Assembly (NCBI GenBank): GCA_002840735.1
Contig: PHBY01000024.1
Location: 1-36,902, forward strand
DNA: 36,902 nt
Reading direction: 5' to 3'
Source of the DNA: Chloroflexi bacterium HGW-Chloroflexi-2
GTDB taxonomy: Bacteria; Chloroflexota; Anaerolineae; Anaerolineales; Anaerolineaceae
The notes under the pieces are model-generated. The model was given only the letters and a program-made list of their open reading frames with translations, was not told the origin of the DNA and did not search any database. Made by a program: the position numbers and the translations under genes. Numbering within the stretch: position 1 is the first letter of the stretch; every line of letters begins with the position of its first letter. Shown one piece after another: positions 17,416 through 36,902 of this stretch.

Positions 17416-20400
17416 TTAATCCTCTTTGATATCAAAACCGCCGCGGATGATAAAGTCTTTGAGTAGCTTTTCGATTTTGATGCTCAGCCGGAATGCCGGG
17501 ATACTCGTACCCTCTACCGCTTCAAAGTAGGCTTTTGCTACGTCCCTGTCTACTGTTTTCTTCAGGTCGTCGAACCTGCCATATTCATTGATGTTTGCTT
17601 CGGTAGGACCAACATTCATAAGATTTTCCAGCTTTGGAATATCAACCCCTAGAGCATTAGCTAATTGGCGGACTTGCTCGTTCTTAGCACGAAACTGATA
17701 TTCAGTGATGTAGTCCCTGAAAGGCTTACCGTCCTCGATTTCAGCATTTCCGCTTTGAACATCATGGATAAAGATGTTCGCGTACTTTTGTTCTTCCTGG
17801 GTAAGGGTTGCAAAAGATTTATGCAGCTCGTCCAGAGTTGCCTGAAGCAGCTCTTGGTCAATATCATCTTGGCGCAACACTTTGAGATATTTCTCAAAAC
17901 GCGAGTTCATGTAATTAGTATCAATTCTGCCAGTATCGATGGCTACAAGATAGCCATCAATATCGAATGGGATGTCACCGCTGCCGCCGTCACCTGCTTC
18001 TGTAAATAGCTCTTTGTAACGTAATGCTAAGATCAGATAGGTGTTCTCGTCGTATATCATTTCCATGACTTTTTTCGGATTCTTAAAAGTATAGATTCGT
18101 TGCTTCCAGGTGAAACCTTGAATCTTTGCGGCTTCCAGATAATCATTAAGACTACTGAACAGCTTAGCGAACCTGCCACACTCGTCTAAATCGTCTGGCA
18201 GGCGGGAAAAATCCGAGATGCCAACCACAGTAAACAGACGTGAAATATCTGCGAAGATTTGATTCATCTTCTCCAGGTTGTAGTCCAGATGTTCCACAAA
18301 CAATCCAAGTGGCTTATTGCCTGAGTATAAAGCTACCGCTTTGTTTATGTTTCTTTCCATTGTGTTTGGATACCGGTAGTATCGAATCGTGCCAAAAGGC
18401 TTATCTGGACCAAACAATCGGTTCGTGCGAGAAAACGCCTGAATGATGTTCTCGTATTTGAGCAACTTATCCATGTATAGTGTGTTCACCCACTTGGAAT
18501 CAAATCCCGTGAGCATTTGATCTACAACAATCAACAGATCAATTTGTTTTTCAGGGGTTCGTTCGATACGTTCATAAGGCTTTTTGTGTGCCAGGCGCGA
18601 GGCTATATCCTTTTTAAATTTTCCGTGATTTGCTAATGTAAAGTCCTGCTCATACCTTGCATTGTAATCTTCCAGAATCTCAACCAAGCCATCTTCCTTG
18701 AACTTCACACCACCGTTATTGTCGATATACGGATCAAACAGCGCAGTAATTTTTAAATCAGGTTTTGAGTCTCTAAAGAGCCTGTAATAGTCTATGGCTT
18801 CCGGAATACTACTCGTAGCAAAAATCGCATGAAACTTCGAGGCATGGCTCAATCGCAACCAGTTATCCAAAATGTCCTGTATAACCATTTTATGGTGTTC
18901 GGCACGCTTATACTGTTCTCTCGGCAGATAGTCTTCAATGCCTTTGATGTATTTTCCACTCTTTTCACGGTATCCGGCCATTTTGACTTTGACAGTATCC
19001 ATGTAGTAGTAATATTTTTTCGATTTCTCCAGATCTTTAATCGCTTCTTCTTCTGTAGCAGCATTCGCCATCTTCAGTGACACCGCTTTTCGCAGATCGA
19101 TGTCCCTATATGTCAATACCTTATACGGATCGAAGCCAAGCACATTCCCATCACGAATGCCGTCGGCGATGCTATAGCGGTGTAGCTCATTACCAAAGAC
19201 GGTTGAAGTCGTATTCATCTTTTTCTGGTTTTCCTTCTGAATTGGTGTGCCAGTAAATCCAAAAAATACGGCACCAGGGAAGGACTGTTTAACAGTGATC
19301 AACATTTCACCAAATGTAGAGCGATGTGCTTCATCCACAATGAACACGATCCGCTTGGAGTTCATTGATTCAATATCAGCAGAATTTAATCCGCCTTCTT
19401 CATCCTTTATATTGCTCATCTTTTGAATAGATGTGACGATTAGGGTGTCGGCAGGGTTCTTACTTTTCAGCTTCGTGATGAGAGCGTGAGTGTCTTCAGT
19501 CGCTTGTACTTCTTCATTGTCCTCGGCGAAAGCACGAAACTCTCGAAGCGACTGCGTACCAAGCTCAATCCTGTCGACCAGGAAGATAACCTTATCGGCA
19601 TCCTTCGAATTAGCAATCAGCTGGGCAGACTTAAAGCTTGTCATCGTTTTACCAGAGCCTGTTGTGTGCCAAATATAACCCCCAAGCTGCTGTTTATCAC
19701 GCCAATCAATCTTTGAGACACGGTCAGAGATTGCATTGGCAGCATAATACTGATAACTACGCATGACCTTAAGTACGCTATCCGAATCATCAGCAACCGT
19801 ATAAAAACCGATCATCTGATGCGCCATTGGAATCGACAAAAGATAGGTCGCGATATCTCTCCAATTGTTGATCAGCTCGTTATTAAAATCAGCCCAATGG
19901 AAATAAAAGTCCCTATTAAAGACACCATCAGGTCCGGGGTTAGCAAAATAAACCGTTTCTTCAGGCTGCATCGCCACAAATATCTGCACCAAAGAAAAGA
20001 TCCCTGTGAAGATTCCCTCATTGGAGTACTTTTCAATCTGGTAATGAGCCTGACTCACAGGAATGCCACTCTTTTTCAGTTCCAAATGAAACACCGGCAT
20101 GCCATTAATGAGCAGCATCAAATCGCCCCGACGGTCATTCAGAATTTTCGATTTAGATTTATATTTAGGCTGCTGGGCTATTTGATATCGACTTTGCCCA
20201 GCGGCAATTTCGCGGCGGTCATAAATCTTGAGGCTCACTTCTTTGCCAAGATGGAAAGGATCATTAGGGTTATCTCGGGTAATGGAGACTGTCTTGCCAT
20301 TAATAAAACCATTGAGCTTTAAGGGAGTACGAAGAGCCAAAACTTGCTCAAGAATCTGCTGCATCTCCGTATCTGTCAAAGGAGCATCATTCAACCGATC

Positions 20401-20550
20401 TATACCACGATTATTTTCAAACAGAATATTCGCCCAGTTTTTGAGCAATTCTTCTTCTGTCGGATATTTGAGAACCTGATTTTCCCAACCTTTATTTTGT
20501 AAGGCAGCAATCATGGCAGCTTCAAATTCTGCTTCGGTTTTAAATATCAT
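17416..20550 (-). CDS. hsdR: Type I restriction enzyme, HsdR motor/nuclease subunit
   Basis: A 1044-residue subunit of normal length. The N-terminal nuclease (about residues 50-200) shows a D...ExK arrangement in RRGDLMLLINGMPVFHLELKKSG. The translocase has Walker A HTTGSGKTM, a DEAH box in FIVDEAHRST, motif III FGFTGTPIQ and motif VI QAFSRTNRL. A helical C-terminal domain for contact with the methylase follows, ending FIIRGGFDIKED. It cleaves unmodified DNA at a distance after ATP-driven translocation, in complex with HsdM and HsdS. Its gene starts 17 bases after the hsdS stop, so the three genes form one operon. No frameshift or missing key motif is seen, so the system is probably active. 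Confidence 0.96.
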   Translation of the reverse strand: MIFKTEAEFEAAMIAALQNKGWENQVLKYPTEEELLKNWANILFENNRGIDRLNDAPLTDTEMQQILEQVLALRTPLKLNGFINGKTVSITRDNPNDPFHLGKEVSLKIYDRREIAAGQSRYQIAQQPKYKSKSKILNDRRGDLMLLINGMPVFHLELKKSGIPVSQAHYQIEKYSNEGIFTGIFSLVQIFVAMQPEETVYFANPGPDGVFNRDFYFHWADFNNELINNWRDIATYLLSIPMAHQMIGFYTVADDSDSVLKVMRSYQYYAANAISDRVSKIDWRDKQQLGGYIWHTTGSGKTMTSFKSAQLIANSKDADKVIFLVDRIELGTQSLREFRAFAEDNEEVQATEDTHALITKLKSKNPADTLIVTSIQKMSNIKDEEGGLNSADIESMNSKRIVFIVDEAHRSTFGEMLITVKQSFPGAVFFGFTGTPIQKENQKKMNTTSTVFGNELHRYSIADGIRDGNVLGFDPYKVLTYRDIDLRKAVSLKMANAATEEEAIKDLEKSKKYYYYMDTVKVKMAGYREKSGKYIKGIEDYLPREQYKRAEHHKMVIQDILDNWLRLSHASKFHAIFATSSIPEAIDYYRLFRDSKPDLKITALFDPYIDNNGGVKFKEDGLVEILEDYNARYEQDFTLANHGKFKKDIASRLAHKKPYERIERTPEKQIDLLIVVDQMLTGFDSKWVNTLYMDKLLKYENIIQAFSRTNRLFGPDKPFGTIRYYRYPNTMERNINKAVALYSGNKPLGLFVEHLDYNLEKMNQIFADISRLFTVVGISDFSRLPDDLDECGRFAKLFSSLNDYLEAAKIQGFTWKQRIYTFKNPKKVMEMIYDENTYLILALRYKELFTEAGDGGSGDIPFDIDGYLVAIDTGRIDTNYMNSRFEKYLKVLRQDDIDQELLQATLDELHKSFATLTQEEQKYANIFIHDVQSGNAEIEDGKPFRDYITEYQFRAKNEQVRQLANALGVDIPKLENLMNVGPTEANINEYGRFDDLKKTVDRDVAKAYFEAVEGTSIPAFRLSIKIEKLLKDFIIRGGFDIKED

Positions 20551-20567
20551 ATAATGACGTTCCTTTC

Positions 20568-21755
20568 TTAGATAAACATCTTCTCAAGACAAGCTTTTTT
20601 AATATTATGCAATTTTTCCAGCTTACACTGATGAAGGGTGATGAGGTTGTCGAGGCTATGAAAATAAGTCCCGATTTTTGCTTGCTCATCTTGGTTCGGA
20701 ATCGAAATGCTAAAAGTTGAGAATTTTGAAATCCAGTGCCGCTCGTGGTTTTGAGGTGTGTAATTAAAATTTTTCAATGTATATAAAGCAAAATAGAAAT
20801 CATCTTGTTCATCCCTTAGTGTAAGCAATTTCATCGCTGAACTCTTAACTTTAAAAGGAAAATCAACAATATGCGAGGAAGTAGTGAAGTCATCAAAGAT
20901 AATGACTGGGTTTTTTTTATCAGCCATTTTTATCCCGTAATCTTCATCAGTGTAGCCTAGAATAAAGCTCTGTCCAGCGGTCAAAACAGGAGTCAAATAC
21001 TCATTAGAATATTCTGTGCTATTTACAATATAACTAGTTGGTTGTTCATATTTTAATATTTCACCCAACTTACGCTGTTCCCAGGCATAAGTAAATCCAG
21101 CGAATCGAATTTCAGGAACGTTTCTTCCGTTTTTTGGAAACATTTTTTCAAGCATTGCTTTTTTAACATTTTTTAGTTTCATTACCTTACTCTGATGAAG
21201 GTTGATAAGGTTGTCTAGCTCTAAAAGAAATGCCGATATTCTATCCTGTTCTTCGTTTTGAGGCACAGCTATTGTCACAGTTTTATATGCTTCAAAGGAA
21301 ATGTTCAGCAATCCATCCATCCGTGCCCCAGAAGAAACTAGACGTTTTAATTGCTTATCTATCCGTGGATCGTTCAATTCTCTTGCTATGAAATCTGGAT
21401 TATTATGACCAACATCAAAACAGTGATAAACAAAAGGAATCCTTGCTTCATCTACTTTTAGATCAAAGCATGCGCCATATTGTCTGTACTTTGATGCCCC
21501 ATGATTATACGCAAGTTCTCCTTTCCTAAGTAGAATATATTTTGTTAAACTCTGTCCAGCATTGTCACTGGAGTATTTTTCTGATTGATTTATAAAACCA
21601 CTTGCCGCTGATATCATCATAACTGGCGCAGTGGATTCAGAGTCCGTTCTAGAGATTGCCGTTACGAGACTACCCAACTCACGCTGTTCCCAAGCGTCGG
21701 TGAAGCCTTTGAACCGAATTGCAGGTACTTTTGCTTTATCAGGCATTTCACTCAC
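20568..21755 (-). CDS. hsdS: Type I restriction-modification specificity subunit HsdS
   Basis: A 395-residue specificity subunit with two target-recognition domains, each followed by a conserved helix. The protein has an internal duplication: [15 protein letters not shown] near residue 14 is repeated as [15 protein letters not shown] near 217, and [20 protein letters not shown] near 176-195 is repeated as [20 protein letters not shown] near the end. The two recognition halves differ from each other, so the site is bipartite and asymmetric. The gene overlaps the end of hsdM by eight bases. The near-identical repeats could allow domain swapping by recombination. Confidence 0.95.
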
Positions 21756-24333
21756 CTCCCAACAAGGTTTTTAGCTCAGCCAGACCCTTAATATCCACAT
21801 CGCTACCTGTAAGCTGTTCAATCATGGACGAAAGAGTTGCTTCTGTCTCTTCAATTTGGTCTTCCACATCCGCGAAGGTAATTGCGTATTTATCAGCAAG
21901 AGCCTGCACCTTGGCTGCGAGTTTGTCGAGGATGACTTCAGGCATCTGTCGTAATTCCACGATCAATGGAGTAATCCATTTTAACGCCAACAAAGAGTAG
22001 ACTTTATCGTCTGCCAGGTTTTCAATGGTTTCTTTTGTGAGTAAGTGCAGTTTTGTTGAATCAGTCTTAATGACTTTCTTAAGTTCCTTTTCCTCATCGA
22101 GCAGGCACATCACTTTAATGATCTTACCTTCTGGGTTGTTTTCGGTGTAGTCTGCAGCATCGTGCCCCTTGAGCAGATCTTTAGCCCTTTTAATTAACGG
22201 GCTTGCCAGAAATGCGCTGTTATCGTCATTCAAAACATCGGTCAATTCTTCTATTTCTTCTTCCGTCAATGAATCAAGGATTTCTTGTTGCTCGGCTGTA
22301 ACCTGCGTGAGGCGTTCTTCTTTTTCTTTTAGGGTTGTCGCTTCATTGTGGAGCAGCGAATCTTGCACCAGGTCAAATGGGATGATTCTGCCCAGCCAGC
22401 CTTCTTGAACTTCAACATCATTTCCATTCTTTTTCTTAATAACCATATTAGGGTCAACTTTTTTAGTAGCCCCGAAACCTTCTGTTTGAATCATTTCTAA
22501 GTCAACGGATATCTTGATCCAGGCATCATTAAAGAGCTGATAGGCATTGTATTCATCCACCAGCGGTACAGATTCCAGACGATTAAAAATTTCATTGCTA
22601 AGCTTAGTCTCTTCCTTGGAGATACTCAAAGTATTCATACCTACCACAAGATCACTGTACAGCTCAGCATCAAAACCTTCGAAAGCCTTCGCGTATTGTT
22701 CTTTGAAAGAGACTACATTCGGATGGTTTTTGATGATATCTTTGACATTACCCGCTGCAATATGTACATGTTCACCAGGGTCATTCGTAAACAAATCCGC
22801 CTTCAGCTCAGTGAAAGTCTGCCAATAAGCAGAGAGTTCCTCAATTTCCTTTTTGGGTATACCCCCAAACATGGAAGCGTAAATATCCCAACTTTCAGGA
22901 GCCTCGGAAGAATCCACATATCGTGGAATGTTGAGATTGTATTCATTCTTTCGAATCTCATCACGACTAACTACACGAGCAAACTTTGACACATCTTTAC
23001 GATCAGCTACCGTATCGGAGATTCGTTTTATATCCGAGGCTTTAAGCATGTTATTTTTGCCGACCTTCGTAAAACCCTTTGATGCGTCGATAATCAGCAC
23101 GTTAGTATTTTCACGTTTTTGTTTAAGCACCATAATAATGGTTGGTATTCCTGTGCCGTAAAAGATATTGGCCGGCAGTCCAATGACGACATCGATATGA
23201 TTGTTCTCGATCAGGTTCTTACGAATAGCACCTTCTTCACCACCTCGGAATAAAACACCGTGGGGAAGAACGATGGCCATGATACCATTCGGCTTTACGT
23301 GAAAAAGGTCGTGCAGTAAAAAGGCATAGTCTGCTTTCCCTTTTGGTGCCAGACCAAAACGGGCATAACGCGGGTCAGTCTCTTTGCCTTCTGGGTCCCA
23401 TTGTTGCGAATAGGGTGGATTGGAAACAACCGCGTCCACATACAGCGGGTTATAAGTGCCGACCGGGTCACTATCTTCAAAATATGGCCAATCGTCCTCC
23501 AAGGTATCGCCGTTGCGTGTCGTAATATTTGAAGGCAAAATACCACGCATGACCAGATTCATACGGGTAAGGTTATAAGTGTTTTGTTTCAGCTCTTGGG
23601 CGTAGTATTTGATGTTGTCATCATCATCGATGTGTTTGGCAACGCTGCGCCCAATATTAATGAGCAGGCTCCCCGAACCGCTTGTCGGATCGTAGATCTG
23701 GATTTCCTTACGATCTTTTAGGTGATCAGCGACGATTTCGCTCATCAAAAGCGATACTTCATGGGGGGTGTAGAATTCACCGGCTTTTTTACCTGCGTTA
23801 GCTGCAAAGTTGGAAATGAGATATTCGTATATGAAACCTAAGACATCATAGTCCTGTTTGCCGTCCATCGGGATATCTTTAATCAGCTGAATGAGATCAC
23901 TGATAGCTTTCGTCTGTGAGCCGGAGCTCTCGCCTAGCTTGGATAAACCTGTTTGCAGGGTCTCAAAAATGTTGTTAAAGACTTTTTTGTAATTGCTATC
24001 AATTAGGCGGTTGAAAGCAGAGAGCGCATCACGCACATTGGAAACGTCAAAATCTTTGCCTAATGATAGCCAGGTAGAAAGCAAGTCTTTATAGGCAATG
24101 AAATAGCCGATATTGCCCTGAATATACTTGACAGTTTCAGTATCTTCTTCGCTTAATTGCTTGATCTCCTCAATTGTAGCGCCTTTGCTTAGCATGAAGC
24201 GGATTTCTTTATCCGATAGGAATTTATAAAAGATAAAGCCAAGAATGTAGTCCTTGTATTCATTGGCCTCTATTTTGGAACGCATCTTATTTGCAGATTC
24301 CCATATTTTATTTGCAAGTTGTTGCTTATTCAT
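21748..24333 (-). CDS. hsdM: Type I restriction-modification DNA adenine methylase HsdM
   Basis: An 861-residue N6-adenine methyltransferase. The N-terminal helical domain covers about residues 5-150 ([35 protein letters not shown]). The catalytic domain has the SAM-binding [12 protein letters not shown] (about 215-226) and the catalytic NPPYSQQW (about 307-314). A long C-terminal extension (about 490-861), rich in Glu and Lys, makes it clearly longer than classic 500-residue HsdM proteins, as in one subfamily found with this kind of HsdS. First gene of the hsdMSR operon. Confidence 0.95.
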
Positions 24334-27975: not shown

Positions 27976-28030
27976 ATATTATCCATCGGCTCGGTTCCTG
28001 ACCTGAACCCCTTCGACTTGTTCCATCCCG

Positions 28031-28190
28031 TGAGGGGCAAATCGTGTTTTGCTCATAAATCCAAAACACCATTTGCCCCGCCTTATCCCCAGCCGCAGAG
28101 AAAGCGCGCCAAAACGGCTTTAGTTGCTGGATGCTGGAGCCACAAGTGCATGTGGGTCCAGCTCCAGCGCCTGCAGGTCGTTTTCGCGCG
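28031..28190. repeat. Structured repeat modules S3-S4, copy B
   Basis: S3: GGGGCAAATCGTGTTTTG, a 10-base loop, then CAAAACACCATTTGCCCC. S4: GCAGAGAAAGCGCGCCAAAA, an inner hairpin carrying GCTGGAG/CTCCAGC, then GGTCGTTTTCGCGCG. Both match copy C at 34666-34830 almost base for base in the outer strings while the inner hairpins differ. Confidence 0.8.
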
Positions 28191-28240
28191 TTAAAAGAAG
28201 TGAACCAAACATCACCGTTCTAAGTTAAGGTGGTTCGAGC

Positions 28241-28287
28241 GTGGACGTGGTGTCCAGGAGAACTACATTCCTGGACACCACGTCCAC
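28241..28287. repeat. Module H5, perfect 19-bp hairpin
   Basis: GTGGACGTGGTGTCCAGGA (28241-28259) pairs with its exact complement (28269-28287) around GAACTACAT. Upstream GGTTCGAGC and downstream AAAAGAATTTA also occur around the related hairpin at 34997-35085, so the module boundaries extend beyond the stem. Confidence 0.85.
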
Positions 28288-28341
28288 ATCGCACAGAAGA
28301 AAAGAATTTATCAGGCTTTCTTCTGAACTCCCGGCTTGGGG

Positions 28342-28382
28342 TCTGGACGCCCGTCCCTCGTTCCTCAGGACGGCCGTCCAGC
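28342..28382. repeat. Module H1, copy c
   Basis: TCTGGACGCCCGTC pairs with GACGGCCGTCCAGC around CCTCGTTCCTCAG. It keeps the same single C-C mismatch in the stem as copy a but has GACG where copy a has GACA, with the opposite arm changed to match. It is followed directly by the module that carries the short ORF at 28460-28591. Confidence 0.8.
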
Positions 28383-28459
28383 CCTTAATAAATTTTCTCA
28401 AATGGACCATCAATTTTCCGTAACCCATCAATGATCCAATCCCAACAACGACGGCACCC

Positions 28460-28591
28460 TCAACCAAACCATAATCCATATCCATAGCACATCCCATCCC
28501 AGCTATCCTTGTGCCTTGATCGATACTTAACCCGAACAGAGCCGGCTGCTTCATGCCAGTTGTTTCCGAAGAACCCCTTGGCGCGTGCCAT
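28460..28591 (-). CDS. Short repeated ORF (43 residues), copy 1
   Basis: Starts MARAKGFFGNNWHEAAGSVR and continues VKYRSRHKDSWDGMCYGYGL, then WFG and stop. A second copy lies at 35195-35413 (MARARGENNWHEAAGEVRVK...). Between the copies, in the block from WHEAAG to MCYG, four of the codon changes are synonymous and only one residue differs; the length difference near the start is six bases, so the frame is kept. This pattern suggests a real peptide, or part of a larger protein now fragmented. GAGGGGT lies directly before the ATG. No known domain is recognised. It sits within the repeat module placed after H1. Confidence 0.45.
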   Translation of the reverse strand: MARAKGFFGNNWHEAAGSVRVKYRSRHKDSWDGMCYGYGLWFG

Positions 28592-28648
28592 ACCCCTCTC
28601 TCAAAATCGAGTTCATTGCAAACCCAAAAAATTTACTCTATCTTCCAG

Positions 28649-29149: not shown

Positions 29150-30001
29150 TTATTCTTTATTTGCTAAAAAAGAGAATGATGGCAAAGGTTCAACAGAATA
29201 CGTCTCTGTATATCTCCTTAAGGCATCAATTTGCCAACTTATGTTGTCATAAAATTTTTTAGGAATCCCTGTTTGTTTACTATCCGTGAGAAGCTGGTCA
29301 AGGCAAATATCAACCTCCCAGTTTACATATTCTTTCATTGGAGAAGAGTCTATTTTAAATTCTTCGGTGATAATCCAACCGGCTTTATCAAGAAGATTTT
29401 CAATTTCTTGTTTTGAGAAAGGTGATCTTATATTCGCAAAACTTTGTTGTTTAAACGATTCAAATTGTCCTTGTATAATAATTGCAAGCAAATGGGGAAT
29501 TTGCATTATATTATCTGCAACAATATCCCATTCTGAAAAACATAATTTTTTTGAATACTTTTTTGAATTAATAAATGAATTTAATAAAATTTCTCGACTT
29601 TCAAAATAATATGAACAATGGGCAAATACAACAAAATCGAAAACATTGTTAGTGAAAATGTTATGAGTATTGTTGATATTAAAGTTGAAGAGAAATTTTA
29701 TTCGGGATCCTAATCTTGATTCAGACAAGAATTTTGCCGCTTCTCCTATAGTGATAGGGCTACCATAATTAGCATCAGCAATATCAGTAGCGATTACTTG
29801 TCCATTATTTCCAACAGCTTCTGCGAGTATGGCTGTAGTGTCTCCTTGGCCACAACCAATTTCTAAAACAGATGCACCATCAAAAATCCCCCATCTATCC
29901 ACAAATTTTGATTTAAAAGTAGTAATGGCATTTCGTTCTCGAGCATTTAAATTGTACATAGCAATGCATTTAGAAATATTTTCGATATTCAACACAGGCA
30001 T
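29150..30001 (-). CDS. SAM-dependent methyltransferase, RiPP locus
   Basis: A 283-residue class I methyltransferase. The SAM-binding motif is VLEIGCGQGDTTAILAEAVG (about residues 43-62), followed by the acidic VIATDIADANYG and the motif IV-like FDFVVFAHCSYYF. The C-terminal part (about 180-283) has SPFSKQEIENLLDKAGWIIT, as in small-molecule or peptide methyltransferases. The ATG has AAAGG just upstream. It is the last gene of the minus-strand RiPP locus, 40 bases after another methyltransferase gene. Acting on a modified peptide is inferred from position only. Confidence 0.8.
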   Translation of the reverse strand: MPVLNIENISKCIAMYNLNARERNAITTFKSKFVDRWGIFDGASVLEIGCGQGDTTAILAEAVGNNGQVIATDIADANYGSPITIGEAAKFLSESRLGSRIKFLFNFNINNTHNIFTNNVFDFVVFAHCSYYFESREILLNSFINSKKYSKKLCFSEWDIVADNIMQIPHLLAIIIQGQFESFKQQSFANIRSPFSKQEIENLLDKAGWIITEEFKIDSSPMKEYVNWEVDICLDQLLTDSKQTGIPKKFYDNISWQIDALRRYTETYSVEPLPSFSFLANKE

Positions 30002-30041: not shown

Positions 30042-30623
30042 TTAATTTTTAATATAGCTAACAATGATTGTTAGATTAGTCTCTATAATTTTAATGGTAC
30101 CAAGTTCTAATTTATTCCAAGTTTGGATAAAATCCTGGAAATAATTAGAGCCTTTATAATCATATAGTATCAATTTTCCCTTTGGCTCAATCCACCCAAA
30201 ACACCTTTTCACATAATCTTTCATATCCGACTCGAAAGTATAATCAGGACTAGTTATTACATACCCAAATCTCTTTTCAATTGGATCATATTCATCTACA
30301 TTTGATACATAAAAATTTGAGTAGAATCTGGGGAGGATAATATTTCTAGCTTCTTGTATTGATTTAACCAAGAAATCAACACCGTAGGGGCATAAGCTTA
30401 ATGAGATATTAGATATTATATATTTTAACAAACTCCCATTTCCACAACCTAAATCTAATATATTCCCACCTTTGTCAAATAGTTGTAAAAAAGCACTATA
30501 TGCTAAGTTTTGTGCATCTTCAGATGACCATCCATTATGCATTGAGAGAGGAGCATTGGAATCGTTATAGTATGTTTTTAGGTAATTATTTTTTGCTGCT
30601 ATTATTTTTTCATCTTCAATCAA
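30042..30623 (-). CDS. Second SAM-dependent methyltransferase, RiPP locus
   Basis: A 193-residue class I methyltransferase of minimal size. Motif I is NILDLGCGNGSLLKYI (about residues 54-69), and a motif IV-like stretch is RFGYVITSPDYTFESD. The start is TTG at 30623 with GGAG eight bases before it; no suitable ATG exists in frame nearby. It is encoded 227 bases after the second precursor gene and 40 bases before the other methyltransferase gene. Its substrate could be the peptide, but no sequence feature proves this. Confidence 0.72.
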   Translation of the reverse strand: MIEDEKIIAAKNNYLKTYYNDSNAPLSMHNGWSSEDAQNLAYSAFLQLFDKGGNILDLGCGNGSLLKYIISNISLSLCPYGVDFLVKSIQEARNIILPRFYSNFYVSNVDEYDPIEKRFGYVITSPDYTFESDMKDYVKRCFGWIEPKGKLILYDYKGSNYFQDFIQTWNKLELGTIKIIETNLTIIVSYIKN

Positions 30624-30850: not shown

Positions 30851-31030
30851 TTAATTTCGATCTCTAAAGTGTTTTTGATGGTTCGTATGTGCTTGTAGTT
30901 CTGGATTATTCTTTTCTTTTTCGAGACGCTCGATAAGATTTGAAATGACAACAGAACCAGGACTACTACTTGCTTTTAAACGCTTGATGTCATTTTTTGT
31001 GAAAGAAACAACCGGCATTTTCTTTTTCAT
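30851..31030 (-). CDS. RiPP precursor peptide B (candidate triceptide substrate)
   Basis: A 59-residue peptide with a very good ribosome binding site (GGAGG four bases before ATG). The leader is basic and helical (MKKKMPVVSFTKNDIKRLKA, then SNLIERLEKEKNNPE). The C-terminus is His-rich and reads LQAHTNHQKHFRDRN, with His-Thr-Asn and Phe-Arg-Asp triads. Three-residue cyclophane maturases of the Xye/Grr/Fxs group join an aromatic or His ring to the residue two places on, often Asn or Asp, so this tail fits as core. The gene begins 26 bases after the stop of a radical SAM/SPASM gene. It contains no Cys, Ser/Thr cluster or Gly-Gly that would favour a lanthipeptide. Confidence 0.72.
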   Translation of the reverse strand: MKKKMPVVSFTKNDIKRLKASSSPGSVVISNLIERLEKEKNNPELQAHTNHQKHFRDRN

Positions 31031-31056: not shown

Positions 31057-32190
31057 TTAACTATATTGTTTCATAGCTATCAATTTCGCATTAATGTGCT
31101 TGATCAATTTATACAAATCGACACAGTATATACTAGGATTGTCGAACTCACGAGATATTGAATACCGGTGTGGAAGATAACCACCACCACATACATTTAC
31201 AATATCACAATTTTTACATTTTTCTGATAGGCTTTTATAACCACCAGCTTGAACCCTTCCTAATTTATTCTCATTTATAGTTGAATAATTTAAATCATTA
31301 GTTAGAATATTAGCTCCTAAATAAGTCGATACTGATGCTTTTAATGAGTCCAAAGCATGTAAATCTCCATTTGTGGCGATAACAAGTATCTCTATCGGTG
31401 TAATTCCATAAACATCCATATTGTGCTTGTATCCAAGACATAAAGTCATTAAGACATCAAATAACCTAATTGAAATATTAGAATTATTTAAGTTGAGGTA
31501 TTCATCGAACATTTCCAGTAACCAGTCTCCATAGTGAGTATCAAGAAAATCACCTTTGCCTGGCGGGAGATTAGAATAATTAGAATCCGGAAAAAGGAAA
31601 TCGACATTTTTTATCCCCATATTTAAAAATTCATGTAATGTTTCCAACGGGTTAGAATTAATATTGATAACACTTAGCGTACCACTAAAAACTTCTCTAT
31701 TTTTTTCTGTTGAAAGGCATAAATTTATTGCTCTTCTTACCTTTTCATATGAACCTTCCCCAGAGTGAAACTTCCGGTTTGTGTCGTGCACAACTTGATT
31801 TCCATCTAGACTTATACCAATTCCCACATTATATTTATGAAAAATGTCAATCCACCCTTGATCCAATAAAGTACCATTTGTTTGTAATCCGAAACTTATA
31901 TTGATTCCAGTTTGCCTAAAGATTGATTCAAAATAATTAAACAAGTCCTCTGTATTTTTCTTTCCAAAAAGTAAAGGTTCACCACCGTGTAAATTAATAC
32001 CAATAGATTTTAATTGGTGATTGATAGCGTAATCCTTGATTTTATTAGCCGATGTTTGCCAAATCTCAGTACTCATAAAAGGAGGTTGTTTTTTCCAAGA
32101 TTTGTCTGCGAGTTTAAATACGTAACAATAACTACAATTTAAATTGCATTTACCCGAAACTTTTAATAAAAACGTTGTAAATTCAGACAT
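31057..32190 (-). CDS. Radical SAM/SPASM peptide maturase B (FxsB/Xye-like)
   Basis: A 377-residue iron-sulfur enzyme starting MSEFTTFLLKVSGKCNLNCS. I chose ATG 32190 because the family begins a few residues before the first cluster; an upstream TTG would add ten residues. The radical SAM cluster is C15-x3-C19-x2-C22, with the SAM-contacting LHGGEPLL after it. The C-terminal SPASM part has CKNCDIVNVCGGGYLPHRYS and FDNPSIYCVDLYKLIKHI; the 'CGGG...HRYS...FDNPSIYC' arrangement is the one I associate with FxsB/Xye-type maturases that form three-residue cyclophanes. The ATG overlaps the end of the upstream unknown gene's frame, and precursor B follows 26 bases downstream. The catalytic type is well supported; the exact crosslink is inferred. 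Confidence 0.85.
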   Translation of the reverse strand: MSEFTTFLLKVSGKCNLNCSYCYVFKLADKSWKKQPPFMSTEIWQTSANKIKDYAINHQLKSIGINLHGGEPLLFGKKNTEDLFNYFESIFRQTGINISFGLQTNGTLLDQGWIDIFHKYNVGIGISLDGNQVVHDTNRKFHSGEGSYEKVRRAINLCLSTEKNREVFSGTLSVININSNPLETLHEFLNMGIKNVDFLFPDSNYSNLPPGKGDFLDTHYGDWLLEMFDEYLNLNNSNISIRLFDVLMTLCLGYKHNMDVYGITPIEILVIATNGDLHALDSLKASVSTYLGANILTNDLNYSTINENKLGRVQAGGYKSLSEKCKNCDIVNVCGGGYLPHRYSISREFDNPSIYCVDLYKLIKHINAKLIAMKQYS

Positions 32191-32779
32191 TATTCTTAAC
32201 ACCCCATAATCTAAATTCAAGATACGAAATTTCTAAGAACTTCTGGTAGATTTCTTCTAGGAAGATAAAATAATAGTTTTCATACCCTTGTTTTGGAAGG
32301 AAGAAAATGTCAATACAAGGCATAATAAGGGTTTCGGAGGTAACAAAAGTCTTATCAATAAAGATTTCTACGCAATAATCATCCATACTTTTATTAACAC
32401 GATCACCGATAAGGGTAAATTTTTTTTCAAGTTTATCGTATTCTTCTTGATTTCTAGGTAAAATACCGACGTTACGATATTTTATTAATTTTTTTTCCTT
32501 ATCAATAAGATGCCCTTCACAACTTGAATAAGTAATTAAATCTAAGGAATAGATTAGGTATAAAACTAATGATTTAACGCCTTTTTCAATTGCTTCTTTT
32601 AGGAATTTATTGTTCTTTGTAAATATTGATGCCTCCAAACACGATAATTCTCCATTCAGGTTAATCGCACCTTCTTTCCCTTTAACATATGTTGGATTTT
32701 TATTTTTCGATTCTTCAATAGAAACTCTATCATCCCAGTTGTTTATAAAATTTTCTAATCCACCAAAGAAATTATCCAT
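32183..32779 (-). CDS. Unknown protein of the RiPP locus (SCEGH motif)
   Basis: A 198-residue protein I do not recognise. Visible features are an acidic N-terminus, a helical segment LKEAIEKGVKSLVLYLIYSL (about residues 60-80) and a striking ITYSSCEGHLID (about 82-93). A Cys and His so placed could bind metal or form an active site. Later come YRNVGILPRNQEEYDKLEKKF and a hydrophobic C-terminus (NYYFIFLEEIYQKFLEISYL). No membrane anchor is certain. Its stop codon lies three bases inside the maturase B gene (ATGTCTGA), so the two proteins are probably made in equal amounts and may interact. It could be a partner protein, a leader-binding protein or an immunity protein. Confidence 0.65.
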   Translation of the reverse strand: MDNFFGGLENFINNWDDRVSIEESKNKNPTYVKGKEGAINLNGELSCLEASIFTKNNKFLKEAIEKGVKSLVLYLIYSLDLITYSSCEGHLIDKEKKLIKYRNVGILPRNQEEYDKLEKKFTLIGDRVNKSMDDYCVEIFIDKTFVTSETLIMPCIDIFFLPKQGYENYYFIFLEEIYQKFLEISYLEFRLWGVKNNV

Positions 32780-32959: not shown

Positions 32960-34057
32960 TTATTCTCTAATTAGGTTCCCCTCAAGTTCAGATTCAAGTA
33001 TTTTAAATACATAAGTAAAAAATTCTCGATAATATTCACAAAAATAATTTGATTCCCCTACCCAATTTCTTTGACATCCACCATTACAGATAACATTGAC
33101 ATCACATTTCTTACAATTAACGTTATTACTTACTCTACTGAGAGCAATATTTCTACACTGATTAAATAATTCACTGTTTATGATTTGTGTTAAATTGTCT
33201 GTTTTAATATTACCCAAATTAGGTAAAATGTCGGCATTATAATCATCACAAAAAGAAATATCCCCATTACCTTCTACAGTTAAGAAGCTTCCACAGCTTT
33301 TTCCACTGATAGTACAAACGCCTCCTGTTCCTCCTAAAAATCTTTCAATTATGGATACAATTGTTCTTATTTTTATTTCAGGATCATCATAATCTAAATA
33401 CCAATCTAATATTTTCTTCATAAATTCAGCAAAATTTTTCGGGGAAATTGAAAATATGTTTTTGTTTTCCCCACAATTGTATGCGGGTAGAAAATCAAAA
33501 TTTTTGATATTATTGTCAAGAAAAAAATTTAATAGTTCTGTAGAAAATTGAGATGAAGTCTCTGTTATCACACATAGTATCCCAACTCTTAAATCGTTAT
33601 CTAGGCAAAGATTGATAGATCGCAATACCTTATCAAAAACACTCTTACCATCTTTTGTATATCTTTGTTTATCATTTATAAAAGCAGGACCATCGATACT
33701 AATTCCTACACTTGTTTTCAAAGATTTAAATATTTCGATCCAATTATTATCAATTAGTGTTCCATTTGTCTGAATTGAATTACTAAATTCTATTCCTGTT
33801 TCTTTTTGAAATTTGCTTACTTGTTCATAAAAGTTTTTTCCTGCTAAAAGTGGTTCTCCCCCATGCCATGTTACACGAGCATGTTTATTATTTCGAGATT
33901 TTTCAAAATCTGCTATTTTATTAATAATCAACCTTGCATCATTAATTGACCAAATTGAATTATTAAATTTGTTATCATAATTTTGTAAATAATAACAATA
34001 AGAGCAACTTAAATTACATTTACTGCCTACTGGTTTTAGAATGAAGTCAAAAATCAT
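32960..34057 (-). CDS. Radical SAM/SPASM peptide maturase A
   Basis: A 365-residue enzyme with the radical SAM motif C14-x3-C18-x2-C21 (KCNLSCSYCYY) and WHGGEPLLAG. The SPASM domain shows the classic seven-Cys spacing: a Cys in GKSCGSFLTVEGNGDISFCD, then C-x2-C-x5-C-x3-C in CKKCDVNVICNGGC and a last Cys in FCEYYREF. This resembles anaerobic sulfatase-maturase-type and peptide-maturase SPASM proteins and differs from maturase B, whose fourth Cys of the C-x2-C-x5-C-x3-C set is replaced. Precursor A lies 10 bases upstream. It should crosslink the aromatic-X-Asn/Asp/Glu triads of that peptide. The start has only a short AGGA spacing, so it may be made at a lower level than the precursor. Confidence 0.85.
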   Translation of the reverse strand: MIFDFILKPVGSKCNLSCSYCYYLQNYDNKFNNSIWSINDARLIINKIADFEKSRNNKHARVTWHGGEPLLAGKNFYEQVSKFQKETGIEFSNSIQTNGTLIDNNWIEIFKSLKTSVGISIDGPAFINDKQRYTKDGKSVFDKVLRSINLCLDNDLRVGILCVITETSSQFSTELLNFFLDNNIKNFDFLPAYNCGENKNIFSISPKNFAEFMKKILDWYLDYDDPEIKIRTIVSIIERFLGGTGGVCTISGKSCGSFLTVEGNGDISFCDDYNADILPNLGNIKTDNLTQIINSELFNQCRNIALSRVSNNVNCKKCDVNVICNGGCQRNWVGESNYFCEYYREFFTYVFKILESELEGNLIRE

Positions 34058-34067
34058 TTCCTAATTA

Positions 34068-34295
34068 TTATCTATGGGTGTTTGCGTGATCTGAATGATC
34101 AGGGGCAGCATAATCTCTATATGACTCATTGATGTGTTCAGACCATGCTGGTTGATCAATCCATCTTTCGTTGTAATCTGTATACCCATTTTGCCACTCA
34201 GATGATTGTCGAGAATATAATGACTTAGCAATTCTAGAGATTGTTTTAAGGCGAATATCATTAATATTTTTTACAGAAAAAATCGAAATTCCCAT
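34068..34295 (-). CDS. RiPP precursor peptide A with nine aromatic-X-Asn/Asp/Glu triads
   Basis: A 75-residue peptide. AAAGGA lies about eight bases before ATG 34295. The leader (about residues 1-33) is basic and helical (MGISIFSVKNINDIRLKTIS...). The last 42 residues contain nine three-residue units beginning with Trp, Tyr or His and ending with Asn, Asp or Glu: WQN (34), YTD (38), YNE (41), WID (45), WSE (51), HIN (54), YRD (59), HSD (67), HAN (70). Of all aromatic or His residues in this part only Tyr62 and His74 fall outside such a unit. This is the pattern of three-residue cyclophane substrates. The gene is first in the locus and is followed within 10 bases by maturase A. An alternative frame (34061-34261) has no such pattern. 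Confidence 0.82.
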   Translation of the reverse strand: MGISIFSVKNINDIRLKTISRIAKSLYSRQSSEWQNGYTDYNERWIDQPAWSEHINESYRDYAAPDHSDHANTHR

Positions 34296-34604: not shown

Positions 34605-34665
34605 GTTCCTTACCCTGCCGGCACCCTGGTGGATTCGTACCCCATCGATCTGTTCCCTCCAGTGA

Positions 34666-34830
34666 GGGGCAAATCGTGTTTTACTCATAAAAATGTAAAA
34701 CACCATTTGCCCCACCTTAACCCCGGCCGCAGAGAAAGCGCGCCAAAACAACAGCAGATCGTTTTATTGCCTGTCCCACAAAAAGCGTGTGGGGCAGGAC
34801 AAAAAACGCCTGCAGGTTGTTATCGCGCGC
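34666..34830. repeat. Structured repeat modules S3-S4, copy C
   Basis: S3: GGGGCAAATCGTGTTTTAC, a 10-base loop, then GTAAAACACCATTTGCCCC, perfectly paired in the GTGTTTTAC/GTAAAACAC part. S4: GCAGAGAAAGCGCGCCAAAA and CAAC pair with GGTTGTTATCGCGCGC, enclosing a hairpin CCTGTCCCACA-AAAAGCG-TGTGGGGCAGG. Compared with copy B, the S4 outer pair has changed from CGGC/GTCG to CAAC/GTTG on both sides. Confidence 0.8.
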
Positions 34831-34996
34831 GAATCCCCGTCGTTCTGTTCCCTTCGATGGATTTGGTACGCATAGAATTTTCTGGAAAACATTTCGAATA
34901 GCTTGTCCACGAGCGAGTTGTTCCATGCGATTGCCGCCGCGCGCTAGAAAGCCAGGAAACGACACCTGGCAGGCGCGCGTCTTGTTGGGCGGGTTC

Positions 34997-35085
34997 GAGC
35001 TCCCCGTTCTTTTTGCCATGTTCTTTGTGTTTAAATTTCTATTTTTTTATTCAGGTTTCCTCTGCAAAACGGGTGTGGGGAGCTC
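34997..35085. repeat. H5-like module in the third repeat block
   Basis: GAGCTCCCC (34997-35005) and GGGGAGCTC (35077-35085) are perfect complements, 71 bases apart, preceded by GGGTTC and followed later by AGAAAAAGAATTTTT. In the second block the sequence GGTTCGAGC leads into the 19-bp hairpin and AAAAGAATTTA follows, so this is the corresponding module with a longer loop. Confidence 0.5.
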
Positions 35086-35167
35086 TTCCCCGCTGCCCGA
35101 ATGTTTCCAGAAAATAGAAAAAGAATTTTTACAATTTGATCCCAGGCTATCTTTTCCATTCCGTGTT

Positions 35168-35216
35168 AAGCTGCGGATTGCTCTCTCTCGTTCCTCAAGA
35201 TGGCAATCCGCAGCTT
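35168..35216. repeat. Module H1, copy d
   Basis: AAGCTGCGGATTGC (35168-35181) and GCAATCCGCAGCTT (35203-35216) pair perfectly over 14 bases, with TCTCTCTCGTTCCTCAAGATG as loop. The stem shares little sequence with the other four copies apart from GCTG/CAGC, but the CTCGTTCCTCA loop is kept. The repeated short-ORF module follows, as after copy c. Confidence 0.8.
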
Positions 35217-35413
35217 AATCCCGATCTCCATTGGTCCATAACCTTACCATTCCAATCCATAACCAAATCCAAACAACTACGGCACCCACCACCAATCCCT
35301 AATCCAGATCCATAGCACATCCCATCCCAGCTATCCTTGTGTCTCGATCGATACTTCACCCGAACTTCGCCGGCTGCTTCGTGCCAGTTGTTTTCCCCCC
35401 TGGCGCGTGCCAT
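35195..35413 (-). CDS. Short repeated ORF (72 residues), copy 2
   Basis: Starts MARARGENNWHEAAGEVRVK and continues YRSRHKDSWDGMCYGSGLGI. About 38 residues match copy 1 at 28460-28591; the frames then diverge, copy 1 stopping early while this one runs on through GGGCRSCLDLVMDWNGKVMD into hairpin H1. The true end of the shared protein is uncertain, and the last 25 codons may be fortuitous. AAAGGGGGG lies directly before the ATG. Function unknown. Confidence 0.4.
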   Translation of the reverse strand: MARARGENNWHEAAGEVRVKYRSRHKDSWDGMCYGSGLGIGGGCRSCLDLVMDWNGKVMDQWRSGLSCGLPS

Positions 35414-36902
35414 ACCCCCCTTTCAAAAGCGCGCTCCGGCTGACCACTCCGCTGCCTCCGCGCGCAATAAGGTAAATTTAAACGCTCTTAGGGGGTAAAA
35501 CATTTCCGCGGCGTATTTCGCCTTTGCAGGCGCGCCGCCTGGCACGGCAGCCGTGCTTCTTTGCATCTCCAACGATTCCTTTGCCGGCACCTTTGAAAAG
35601 ACATTTCCAGATCCGACTCTCATGCCAGCACCGTTCCGCACTTCACCTTCCGTCATTCCGTCCTTTGCGGATGGCTCAGCCCTTGCAGCTTACAAAGCGG
35701 AAGTACATCCGCATTGTACCGCGCCCGGACAATTTGCTACTGCGGAAAAGCATCCGCAGTCATCCCGGTATTTGCAAACCCCAACATACAATCCCTTGGG
35801 GTTTGCCAAAACCGGGTAACGCAAATTGGGCGCTAGCTGCTGCAGGCTGGCCACCGCTGCACTCCTCCACTCCTCCAGTGTTCACCGCGTCACTTCTACA
35901 CAGCAAATCGTGGATCATCCATCACCGAGCTCCAAGCCACACCGGCACCCTGGAATGATCCAATACGTGTCTTAGGTCACTCACCAGCCGGATGGGCAGA
36001 CCTCCCCCGCCGTTCCGGACGACGTCGCCCTGCCCACCGGCTTTCGACACTTGCAAACGTGCGCAGAGAACCCGCCGCCACATCTAATCCCGAATTGATC
36101 TCGATTGCAAATTGTCTATATGGTTAAACCCGTTCGCCTGGCCGGACGCTTCCCCCGCAGTTCCTGCATACGTCGCGCCGGCCGACCTCACTTGTCCGCT
36201 TGCAAATAGTCTCCATAATTCACCAGTTCCATTACTGCCATCTCCGCGATCGCAATCACGCCATATCCCATCCAAACCCACATCCGCAAATACGCCGGCC
36301 GACATCCACCACCACAGCCACAGCATATCCTCGACTTATCCGCAGAGTATCCCGACAGCATCCCTTCCCCTACCCGATCTCCATCACCCCCCCGATCCGC
36401 AGTTCACGCAGCTAAGCGTTTCACCTTGCTGCGCTTCTCCCCGCCGGGCGCGAACGCGCCTTAAGACGGCTGTAGGTAGTTTGAAAGAAAAAGAATTGAC
36501 AGTAAACTCATTCCAATTACCAACAGGTTTCTACAAGCGAACAGATGCAGGGCTACTCTTGCTATCGAAGTATATTGTCACCGAATCCCGCCGTTTTCCG
36601 TTTTTATTTTTCAGTATACAGCAGCAAAAAAAAAGACAAGGTGTGGGGGGTATTCGGTTTAACTTAACCGATTTCGTTGACCCAAAGTGTTGATTCACAA
36701 GCATAATTCCGCGCACCCCCCCCAACCTCGCGTCGTTCCTAGCGCCTTTCAGGTGTCTTTTTTTTTGACTTTGCTGTCTGAAAAATTTAAAAAACTCCAA
36801 ACGGCTTTGATTGCAAACGTGACTAAATAATTTAGTGCTTTGGGATAGTAAGCTTTTTTGTTTTATTTCCAGGTTTTCTTAAATCAGAAAAAAAAAAAAA
36901 AA
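35414..36902. other. Gene-free GC-rich terminal region with nested hairpins
   Basis: I see no gene that I would support in these 1.5 kb; the open frames are short, overlap one another and look compositional. The first 400 bases hold several hairpins: GCGGA-AGTACA-TCCGC (35697-35712), CTGCGGA-AAAGCA-TCCGCAG (35740-35759), and a nested structure with outer CCCGGT/ACCGGG and inner GCAAACCCCAA/TTGGGGTTTGC (35764-35816). A CAAATCGTGGATCATCCAT stretch near 35905 recalls module S3. The window ends in a run of 15 A, which may be a sequence end artefact. Confidence 0.6.

Follow-up and report, generated by a model that had tools for sequence, protein, structure and literature searches.

We analysed the whole of contig C27 (the window; 36,902 nt), from the 4.1 Mb genome of Chloroflexi bacterium HGW-Chloroflexi-2, where a minus-strand gene cluster opens with a short open reading frame, precursor A (Table 1). 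Reading downstream on the same strand, precursor A is followed by the radical SAM (rSAM) gene matA, ORF198, matB, precursor B and two methyltransferase-like ORFs. The precursor A stop codon lies 10 nt from the matA ATG (34057), and the Pfam scores of matA bear out the sequence-only reading's claim of a radical SAM/SPASM gene at this distance. The ORF198 and matB genes overlap. The ATG of precursor A is preceded by AGAAAGGA TTTAAAT, and that of precursor B by GGAGG. When eight cluster proteins were scanned against NCBIfam and Pfam, none matched a transporter, protease or sulfatase family. The 283-aa methyltransferase-like protein has at most 41% identity to Streptomyces plasmid methyltransferases, while the 193-aa protein had no match among plasmids; both could possibly be tailoring enzymes.

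Table 1. Features of the cluster, in window coordinates
Feature	Position	Strand	Remarks
Precursor A	34068..34295	-	75 aa, ATG start; 33-residue leader and 42-residue core with nine [WYH]-X-[NDE] triads
Precursor A core, residues 34-75 and stop	34068..34196	-	Coordinates derived from the ORF
matA, radical SAM/SPASM protein	32960..34057	-	365 aa; Pfam Radical_SAM 55.8 bits, SPASM 34.6 bits, both above cut-off
ORF198, accessory protein	32183..32779	-	Matches rSAM proteins of Kitasatospora and Streptomyces in their C-terminal part
matB, YhhB/FxsB-type radical SAM protein	31057..32220	-	TTG start listed; homology from residue 14; ATG at residue 11
Precursor B	30851..31030	-	59 aa; ends AHTNHQKHFRDRN; YhhA-like, three consecutive H-X-[N/K/R] triads
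Methyltransferase-like ORF, class I, small	30042..30623	-	193 aa; Pfam Methyltransf_31 and Methyltransf_25 barely above cut-off
Methyltransferase-like ORF, class I	29150..30001	-	283 aa; Pfam Methyltransf_23 35.5 bits

The G+C content, in 500-base windows, is 26-33% at 29.0-34.5 kb versus 49-57% at 34.5-36.5 kb. We set aside a recent transfer of the cluster, since coding sequence at 25.0-26.5 kb is likewise low (32-38% G+C) and composition by itself is insufficient to establish one. GC-rich direct repeats, partly collinear, flank the cluster (28007-28609 and 34612-35436), and further copies are found on contig C12 of the same genome. Elsewhere, the window holds complete-looking type I restriction-modification genes (HsdR, HsdS and HsdM by Pfam; 17416-24333) and phage genes (485-5759) that include a capsid protein (Pfam Phage_capsid_4) and a weak, sub-cut-off portal match, followed by an ORF with no Pfam family. 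An anti-phage reading of the cluster was also set aside: PADLOC returned only viperin (pVip) and mad2, reflecting common rSAM and methyltransferase folds.

Translation of precursor A yields the leader MGISIFSVKNINDIRLKTISRIAKSLYSRQSSE and the core WQNGYTDYNERWIDQPAWSEHINESYRDYAAPDHSDHANTHR. The core contains WQN34, YTD38, YNE41, WID45, WSE51, HIN54, YRD59, HSD67 and HAN70, numbered by first residue, with no overlaps, and residues 1-33 are free of triads, exactly as the sequence-only reading had described. Triads start at 9 of the 11 core W/Y/H residues, the exceptions being Y62 and H74. The residue classes in our shuffle tests, W/Y/H/F and N/D/E, came from that earlier motif, and the figures therefore carry some post hoc choice: nine triads were reached in 0 of 100,000 shuffles of the 42-residue core (shuffle maximum, 8) and, when the best of 12 offsets between -6 and +6 was taken, in 12 of 50,000. 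Nine pairs occur at offset +2, and one to five at each of the 11 other offsets. Among the 430 ORFs of at least 25 codons in the window, precursor A has the highest triad count; the runner-up is matB, with six in a 45-residue stretch. Neither precursor A nor precursor B contains a cysteine, so that neither can carry a thioether, and the core Cys that marks sactipeptides and ranthipeptides is missing from both. What precursor A does have is the signature of a triceptide precursor, namely aromatic-X-acceptor triads at i/i+2 beyond chance, adjoining a SPASM-type gene. Precursor A is thus a genuine candidate for a RiPP precursor, in a fitting position beside the gene of an orphan maturase.

We then consider its relatives. 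At E <=0.1, precursor A matched 16 of 301 phylum genomes, source genome included. The 16 match places outside the window (L005-L020) are taken as chance because their best E was 0.003 and no matA-like ORF was present at any of these loci. A scan of the genome collection with the precursor A peptide returned no relative, as did one with matA, a weak negative whose query consisted of two short patterns only; tblastn of precursor A against plasmids and phages gave nothing at E 1. With no precursor A homologue in the collections searched, neither covariation nor conserved spacing stands behind a ring-forming reading, and we count this against it.

No NCBIfam cut-off was reached by matA in the 25 matches listed of 60. 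Its highest score is to the sulfatase maturase model sulfatase_rSAM TIGR03942 (246.8 bits, cut-off 349.45), followed by DynA (195.3, cut-off 450), PRK13758 (180.9, cut-off 441) and YhhB (177.9, cut-off 445); the other families score GrrM 142.9 (cut-off 310), FxsB 141.8 (cut-off 370) and XyeB 116.2 (cut-off 450). In the PDB, the first match is anSME 4k37 (E 1.4e-47), and the next by name is ChlB (E 6e-32). The closest relatives of matA in 400 phylum genomes have about 30% identity. Six sequences went into a structure model of matA, which proved mediocre (mean pLDDT 61.1) and is left out of the evidence.

To place matA, we used a 39-row tree of author-chosen sequences, comprising 8 of 13 phylum relatives from other genomes, sequences from 16 of 80 viral loci and named plasmid references, but no DynA or DarE sequences. 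matA falls outside a 16-row sulfatase-maturase-like clade (fork 100/96) and also outside a 7-row clade (99/96) with XyeB, YhhB, FxsB and matB; it sits at an open fork with GrrM, a Cetobacterium rSAM protein and two actinomycete proteins. This position needs confirming, as the tree program flagged long branches, GrrM and XyeB among them, and a deviating residue composition in 11 rows, including matA and matB. matA has the radical SAM and SPASM cysteines, together with C248, C255 and C270, which we take to be the Aux I cysteines, the name and residue roles following the anSME literature. In a 19-row alignment, these three are shared by matA and all five anSME-like rows, and are missing from matB, two YhhB, FxsB, XyeB, GrrM, Calothrix and Gloeobacter rows. 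D271, which follows C270, was dropped as a mark of sulfatase maturases: the YhhB, FxsB and XyeB rows carry Asp there too, as do most rows lacking Aux I, and the residue does not discriminate. Judged from these comparisons of sequence, matA is most likely a SPASM enzyme with two auxiliary clusters and of another lineage than the named triceptide maturases. The earlier assignment to the Xye, Grr and Fxs maturase families is consequently not upheld, with matA below their cut-offs, outside the Xye/Yhh/Fxs clade and in possession of its Aux I cysteines.

The second maturase in the cluster is of a more familiar kind. In the same tree, matB shares a clade (100/98) with YhhB, FxsB and two plasmid proteins of cyanobacteria. 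It scores 375.7 bits to YhhB (cut-off 445) and 333.4 bits to FxsB (cut-off 370), both below cut-off, and matches the rSAM domain of ChlB (9gm3) with E 4e-67. Precursor B carries HTN-HQK-HFR, near the annotated YhhA C-termini of Vibrio and Rhizobium, YDRTHNRHNRGQ and YDRMHHRHNRS. As far as sequence can tell, matB and precursor B are very probably an ordinary triceptide pair, and the presence of such a pair in the cluster supports the same reading for matA and precursor A.

ORF198 has no Pfam or NCBIfam family and was found in 1 of 400 phylum genomes, its own. Two matches came out of a tblastn search of 72,556 plasmid records. Both fall within annotated radical SAM genes, where the matching region is the C-terminal third of 628- and 631-aa proteins (L131:3501-3962; L132:3501-4031). 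ORF198 is thus free-standing here and a fused C-terminal domain of rSAM proteins in actinomycetes. The motifs Y-x-S-C-x-G-H and V-G-x-L-P-R are common to both forms, and HEXXH putative peptide modification genes lie near the actinomycete genes. Because ORF198 matches a domain of rSAM proteins in such surroundings, it is likely the partner of an rSAM maturase. The rSAM parts of the fused proteins are slightly closer to matA (110 and 82 bits) than to matB (77 and 69 bits), and that partner is more probably matA. A structure model of ORF198 was worthless (34.1 pLDDT) and is not used as evidence.

We now compare precursor A and matA with known systems. According to the sections of PMC11002830 on which we draw, the bond made by 3-CyFEs runs from an aromatic carbon of residue i to the C-beta of residue i+2, in the pairs Trp-Asn/Asp/Arg, Phe-Asn/Ser, Tyr-Asp/Arg and His-Ala/Arg. 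The triceptide/3-CyFE maturases treated there (XncB, OscB, MscB, YxdB, HaaB and YhhB) share with matA a small precursor beside a SPASM-type rSAM gene, and their substrates share with precursor A an aromatic residue or His at i and Asn or Asp at i+2, with precedents for Trp, Tyr and His. The acceptor is Asn or Asp in seven of the nine triads of precursor A; it is Glu in YNE and WSE, and Glu is not among the acceptors described in those sections. Unlike these systems, precursor A, known here from genes alone, mixes nine W/Y/H triads with Asn, Asp and Glu in a single core, and its maturase is of a different lineage. PMC9062424, in the portion used here, reports uncharacterized precursors with Aro-X-Asn and with a Tyr-Asn-Arg-X-(His-Asn-Arg)2 repeat.

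Closer at hand are peptides in our own comparison set. Ahead of the annotated grrM of a Phaeobacter piscinae plasmid (L126), a 114-aa peptide assigned by position has the dense triads WLN, WSN, WNN, WSN, WHN, FSN and WGN; unlike precursor A, its acceptors are uniformly Asn, with no His or acid in the triads, and GrrM, unlike matA, is without the Aux I cysteines. The annotated YhhA/YhhB pairs of Vibrio echinoideorum and Rhizobium etli plasmids, near to precursor B and matB, have three consecutive [YH]-X-R triads, whereas the acceptors of precursor A are N/D/E, and its triads include Trp and are three times as numerous. XyeA has three (WVN, FAR and WDK).

Dense triads recur beside rSAM genes in viruses. 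Viral contigs were scanned with an alignment built on matA, and the best 80 of at least 300 confirmed places were examined; we called an ORF dense when it had at least six [WYHF]-X-[ND] triads, over more than 4% of its length, with z >4. By this definition, 59 of 7,026 ORFs, in 42 of these best 80 loci, are dense, and each of the 59 is encoded on the same strand as its rSAM gene; the 42 loci are not independent, as some are near copies of one another. In the 59 dense ORFs, Asn or Asp follows an aromatic residue or His at +2 2,160 times, versus 244-986 times at 11 other offsets, while the other viral ORFs longer than 100 aa show much the same count at every offset (3,010 at +2 versus 2,664-2,899 elsewhere). 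The end of the dense ORF lies within 60 nt of the start of the rSAM match in 17 of the 42 loci and within 80 nt in 27. As a control, none of the 14 loci around sulfatase-maturase-like genes of the phylum contains a dense ORF. Four of the 23 plasmid and phage loci retrieved do, one being the grrM locus and the other three from Thermus phages. In the Thermus phages Cumys, phiMa and phiLo, the rSAM genes have 49-50% identity to the enzyme of viral locus L095.

Cumys gp13 (343 aa; L133:3961-4992) and phiMa gp29 (342 aa; L135:3964-4992) each contain 61 [WYHF]-X-[ND] triads, mostly H-X-D. In Cumys, genes annotated as tail collar fiber and baseplate come before that for gp13, and a gap of 8 nt separates it from the rSAM gene that follows. 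For Cumys, the part of PMC11437467 used here places two proteins without a known function in an rSAM module and proposes an as yet unknown modification of DNA; in searches of the open-access literature, no title or abstract was recognizable as dealing with such crosslinks in phage proteins. Further viral poly-triad proteins near rSAM genes (for example L061:2358-3953, L087:2753-3988, L095:3045-3983 and L106:2875-3972) have dozens of H-X-D, H-X-N, F-X-N or Y-X-D triads. A 450-aa viral ORF (L043:334-1686) has 44, with Y-X-D alternating with H-X-N or W-X-N, and thereby the residue mix of precursor A (Y-X-D/N, H-X-N/D and W-X-N/D); the best NCBIfam model of its rSAM gene is DynA (147.3 bits, cut-off 450). 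On two Nostoc plasmids, rSAM genes adjoin large ferritin-like-domain genes (L143:566-3568 and L144:651-3604) without dense triads. The phage proteins resemble precursor A in their dense +2 triads ahead of an rSAM gene; unlike it, they are large, with tens of triads, and their rSAM enzymes belong to another clade. It is possible that they are poly-cyclophane virion proteins. The sequence-only reading had described known substrates as having few or more uniform motifs; the seven triads of the GrrA-like peptide, the 61 of Cumys gp13 and the mixed Tyr/His/Trp triads of L043 speak against this. Its triceptide-type interpretation accordingly stands in part: the non-random i/i+2 pattern beside a SPASM gene and the YhhB/FxsB-type pair in the cluster favour it, while its family assignment and its claim of rarity are lost.

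We consider it moderately probable that precursor A is a RiPP precursor in which matA, its likely maturase, makes several aromatic-to-C-beta three-residue cyclophanes, the pairing, the bond and the ring number being what we infer. Precursor A would be made ribosomally, with its last 42 residues as the modified core. Most likely, matA would remove a hydrogen from the C-beta of a triad's third residue, and this carbon would then be bonded to the W, Y or H ring two residues earlier, at several triads and once at each, with two hydrogens lost per ring. ORF198 would probably assist one of the two rSAM enzymes, and matB would do the same kind of job on precursor B. This chemistry is read by analogy with published 3-CyFE work, and the ring count may lie anywhere from a few up to nine. 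The reading is supported by the excess of triads at +2 only, the 10-nt spacing, the lack of Cys, the neighbouring YhhB/YhhA-type pair, the ORF198 match and the matA cysteines, and also by the dense +2 triads found beside other rSAM genes and not around the sulfatase-maturase-like genes of the phylum. We count against it the sulfatase maturases at the top of the NCBIfam and PDB matches, the retained Aux I cysteines, the Glu acceptors and the lack of a recognized protease or transporter. A bolder version, which we regard as doubtful, is that matA stands for a new family of enzymes that make multiple cyclophanes, equipped with the auxiliary clusters of sulfatase maturases and able to close Trp, Tyr and His rings on Asn, Asp and Glu, as many as nine in one short peptide, and that precursor A and the phage poly-triad proteins belong to one wide, so far unnamed polycyclophane world that includes virion proteins.

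The same residues of precursor A could be modified by matA in another way, through crosslinks of the four-residue or the C-N/C-O type known from dynobactin and darobactin, or by epimerization or desaturation. DynA is the second best NCBIfam model of matA, well below its cut-off, and matA does lie outside the Xye/Yhh/Fxs clade; however, a single pair occurs at +3 versus nine at +2, and DynA and DarE were compared by model score alone. We think such a reaction unlikely. Less likely still is that matA is a divergent anaerobic sulfatase maturase, or another oxidase, and that the adjoining peptide is not its substrate. TIGR03942 and anSME are indeed its best NCBIfam model and PDB match, and the full SPASM cysteine set, Aux I included, is retained. 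Yet matA scores under every listed model cut-off, lies outside the sulfatase-maturase-like clade and belongs to a cluster without a sulfatase among the eight proteins scanned. Of the five matches to the sulfatase family in the source genome, four lie on contig C18 around a second matA-like gene, which has 31% identity to matA and falls inside the sulfatase-maturase clade; this separate gene supports the view that matA is not a plain sulfatase maturase.

We give only a slim chance to an exchange of partners, in which matB is the main enzyme to recognize and modify precursor A, or the two maturases do so one after the other, and matA and ORF198 act on precursor B or an unseen substrate. The overlap of the ORF198 and matB genes would fit such an arrangement, and the nearest solved relative of matB is ChlB, reportedly a multiple cyclophane synthase by the title of its paper. 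Nonetheless, precursor A adjoins matA and precursor B adjoins matB, the latter peptide ends like YhhA, and matB groups with YhhB and FxsB.

If our preferred reading, cyclophane formation on precursor A by matA, is true, one enzyme accepts three ring types and three acceptors in one substrate, and matA would be a useful peptide stapling tool. The comparison set also draws attention to phage proteins that carry these motifs by the dozen; any crosslinking of them could be tested directly on isolated Thermus phages. Our preferred reading, if true, would also mean that ring-making SPASM enzymes are not confined to families with a reduced auxiliary site.
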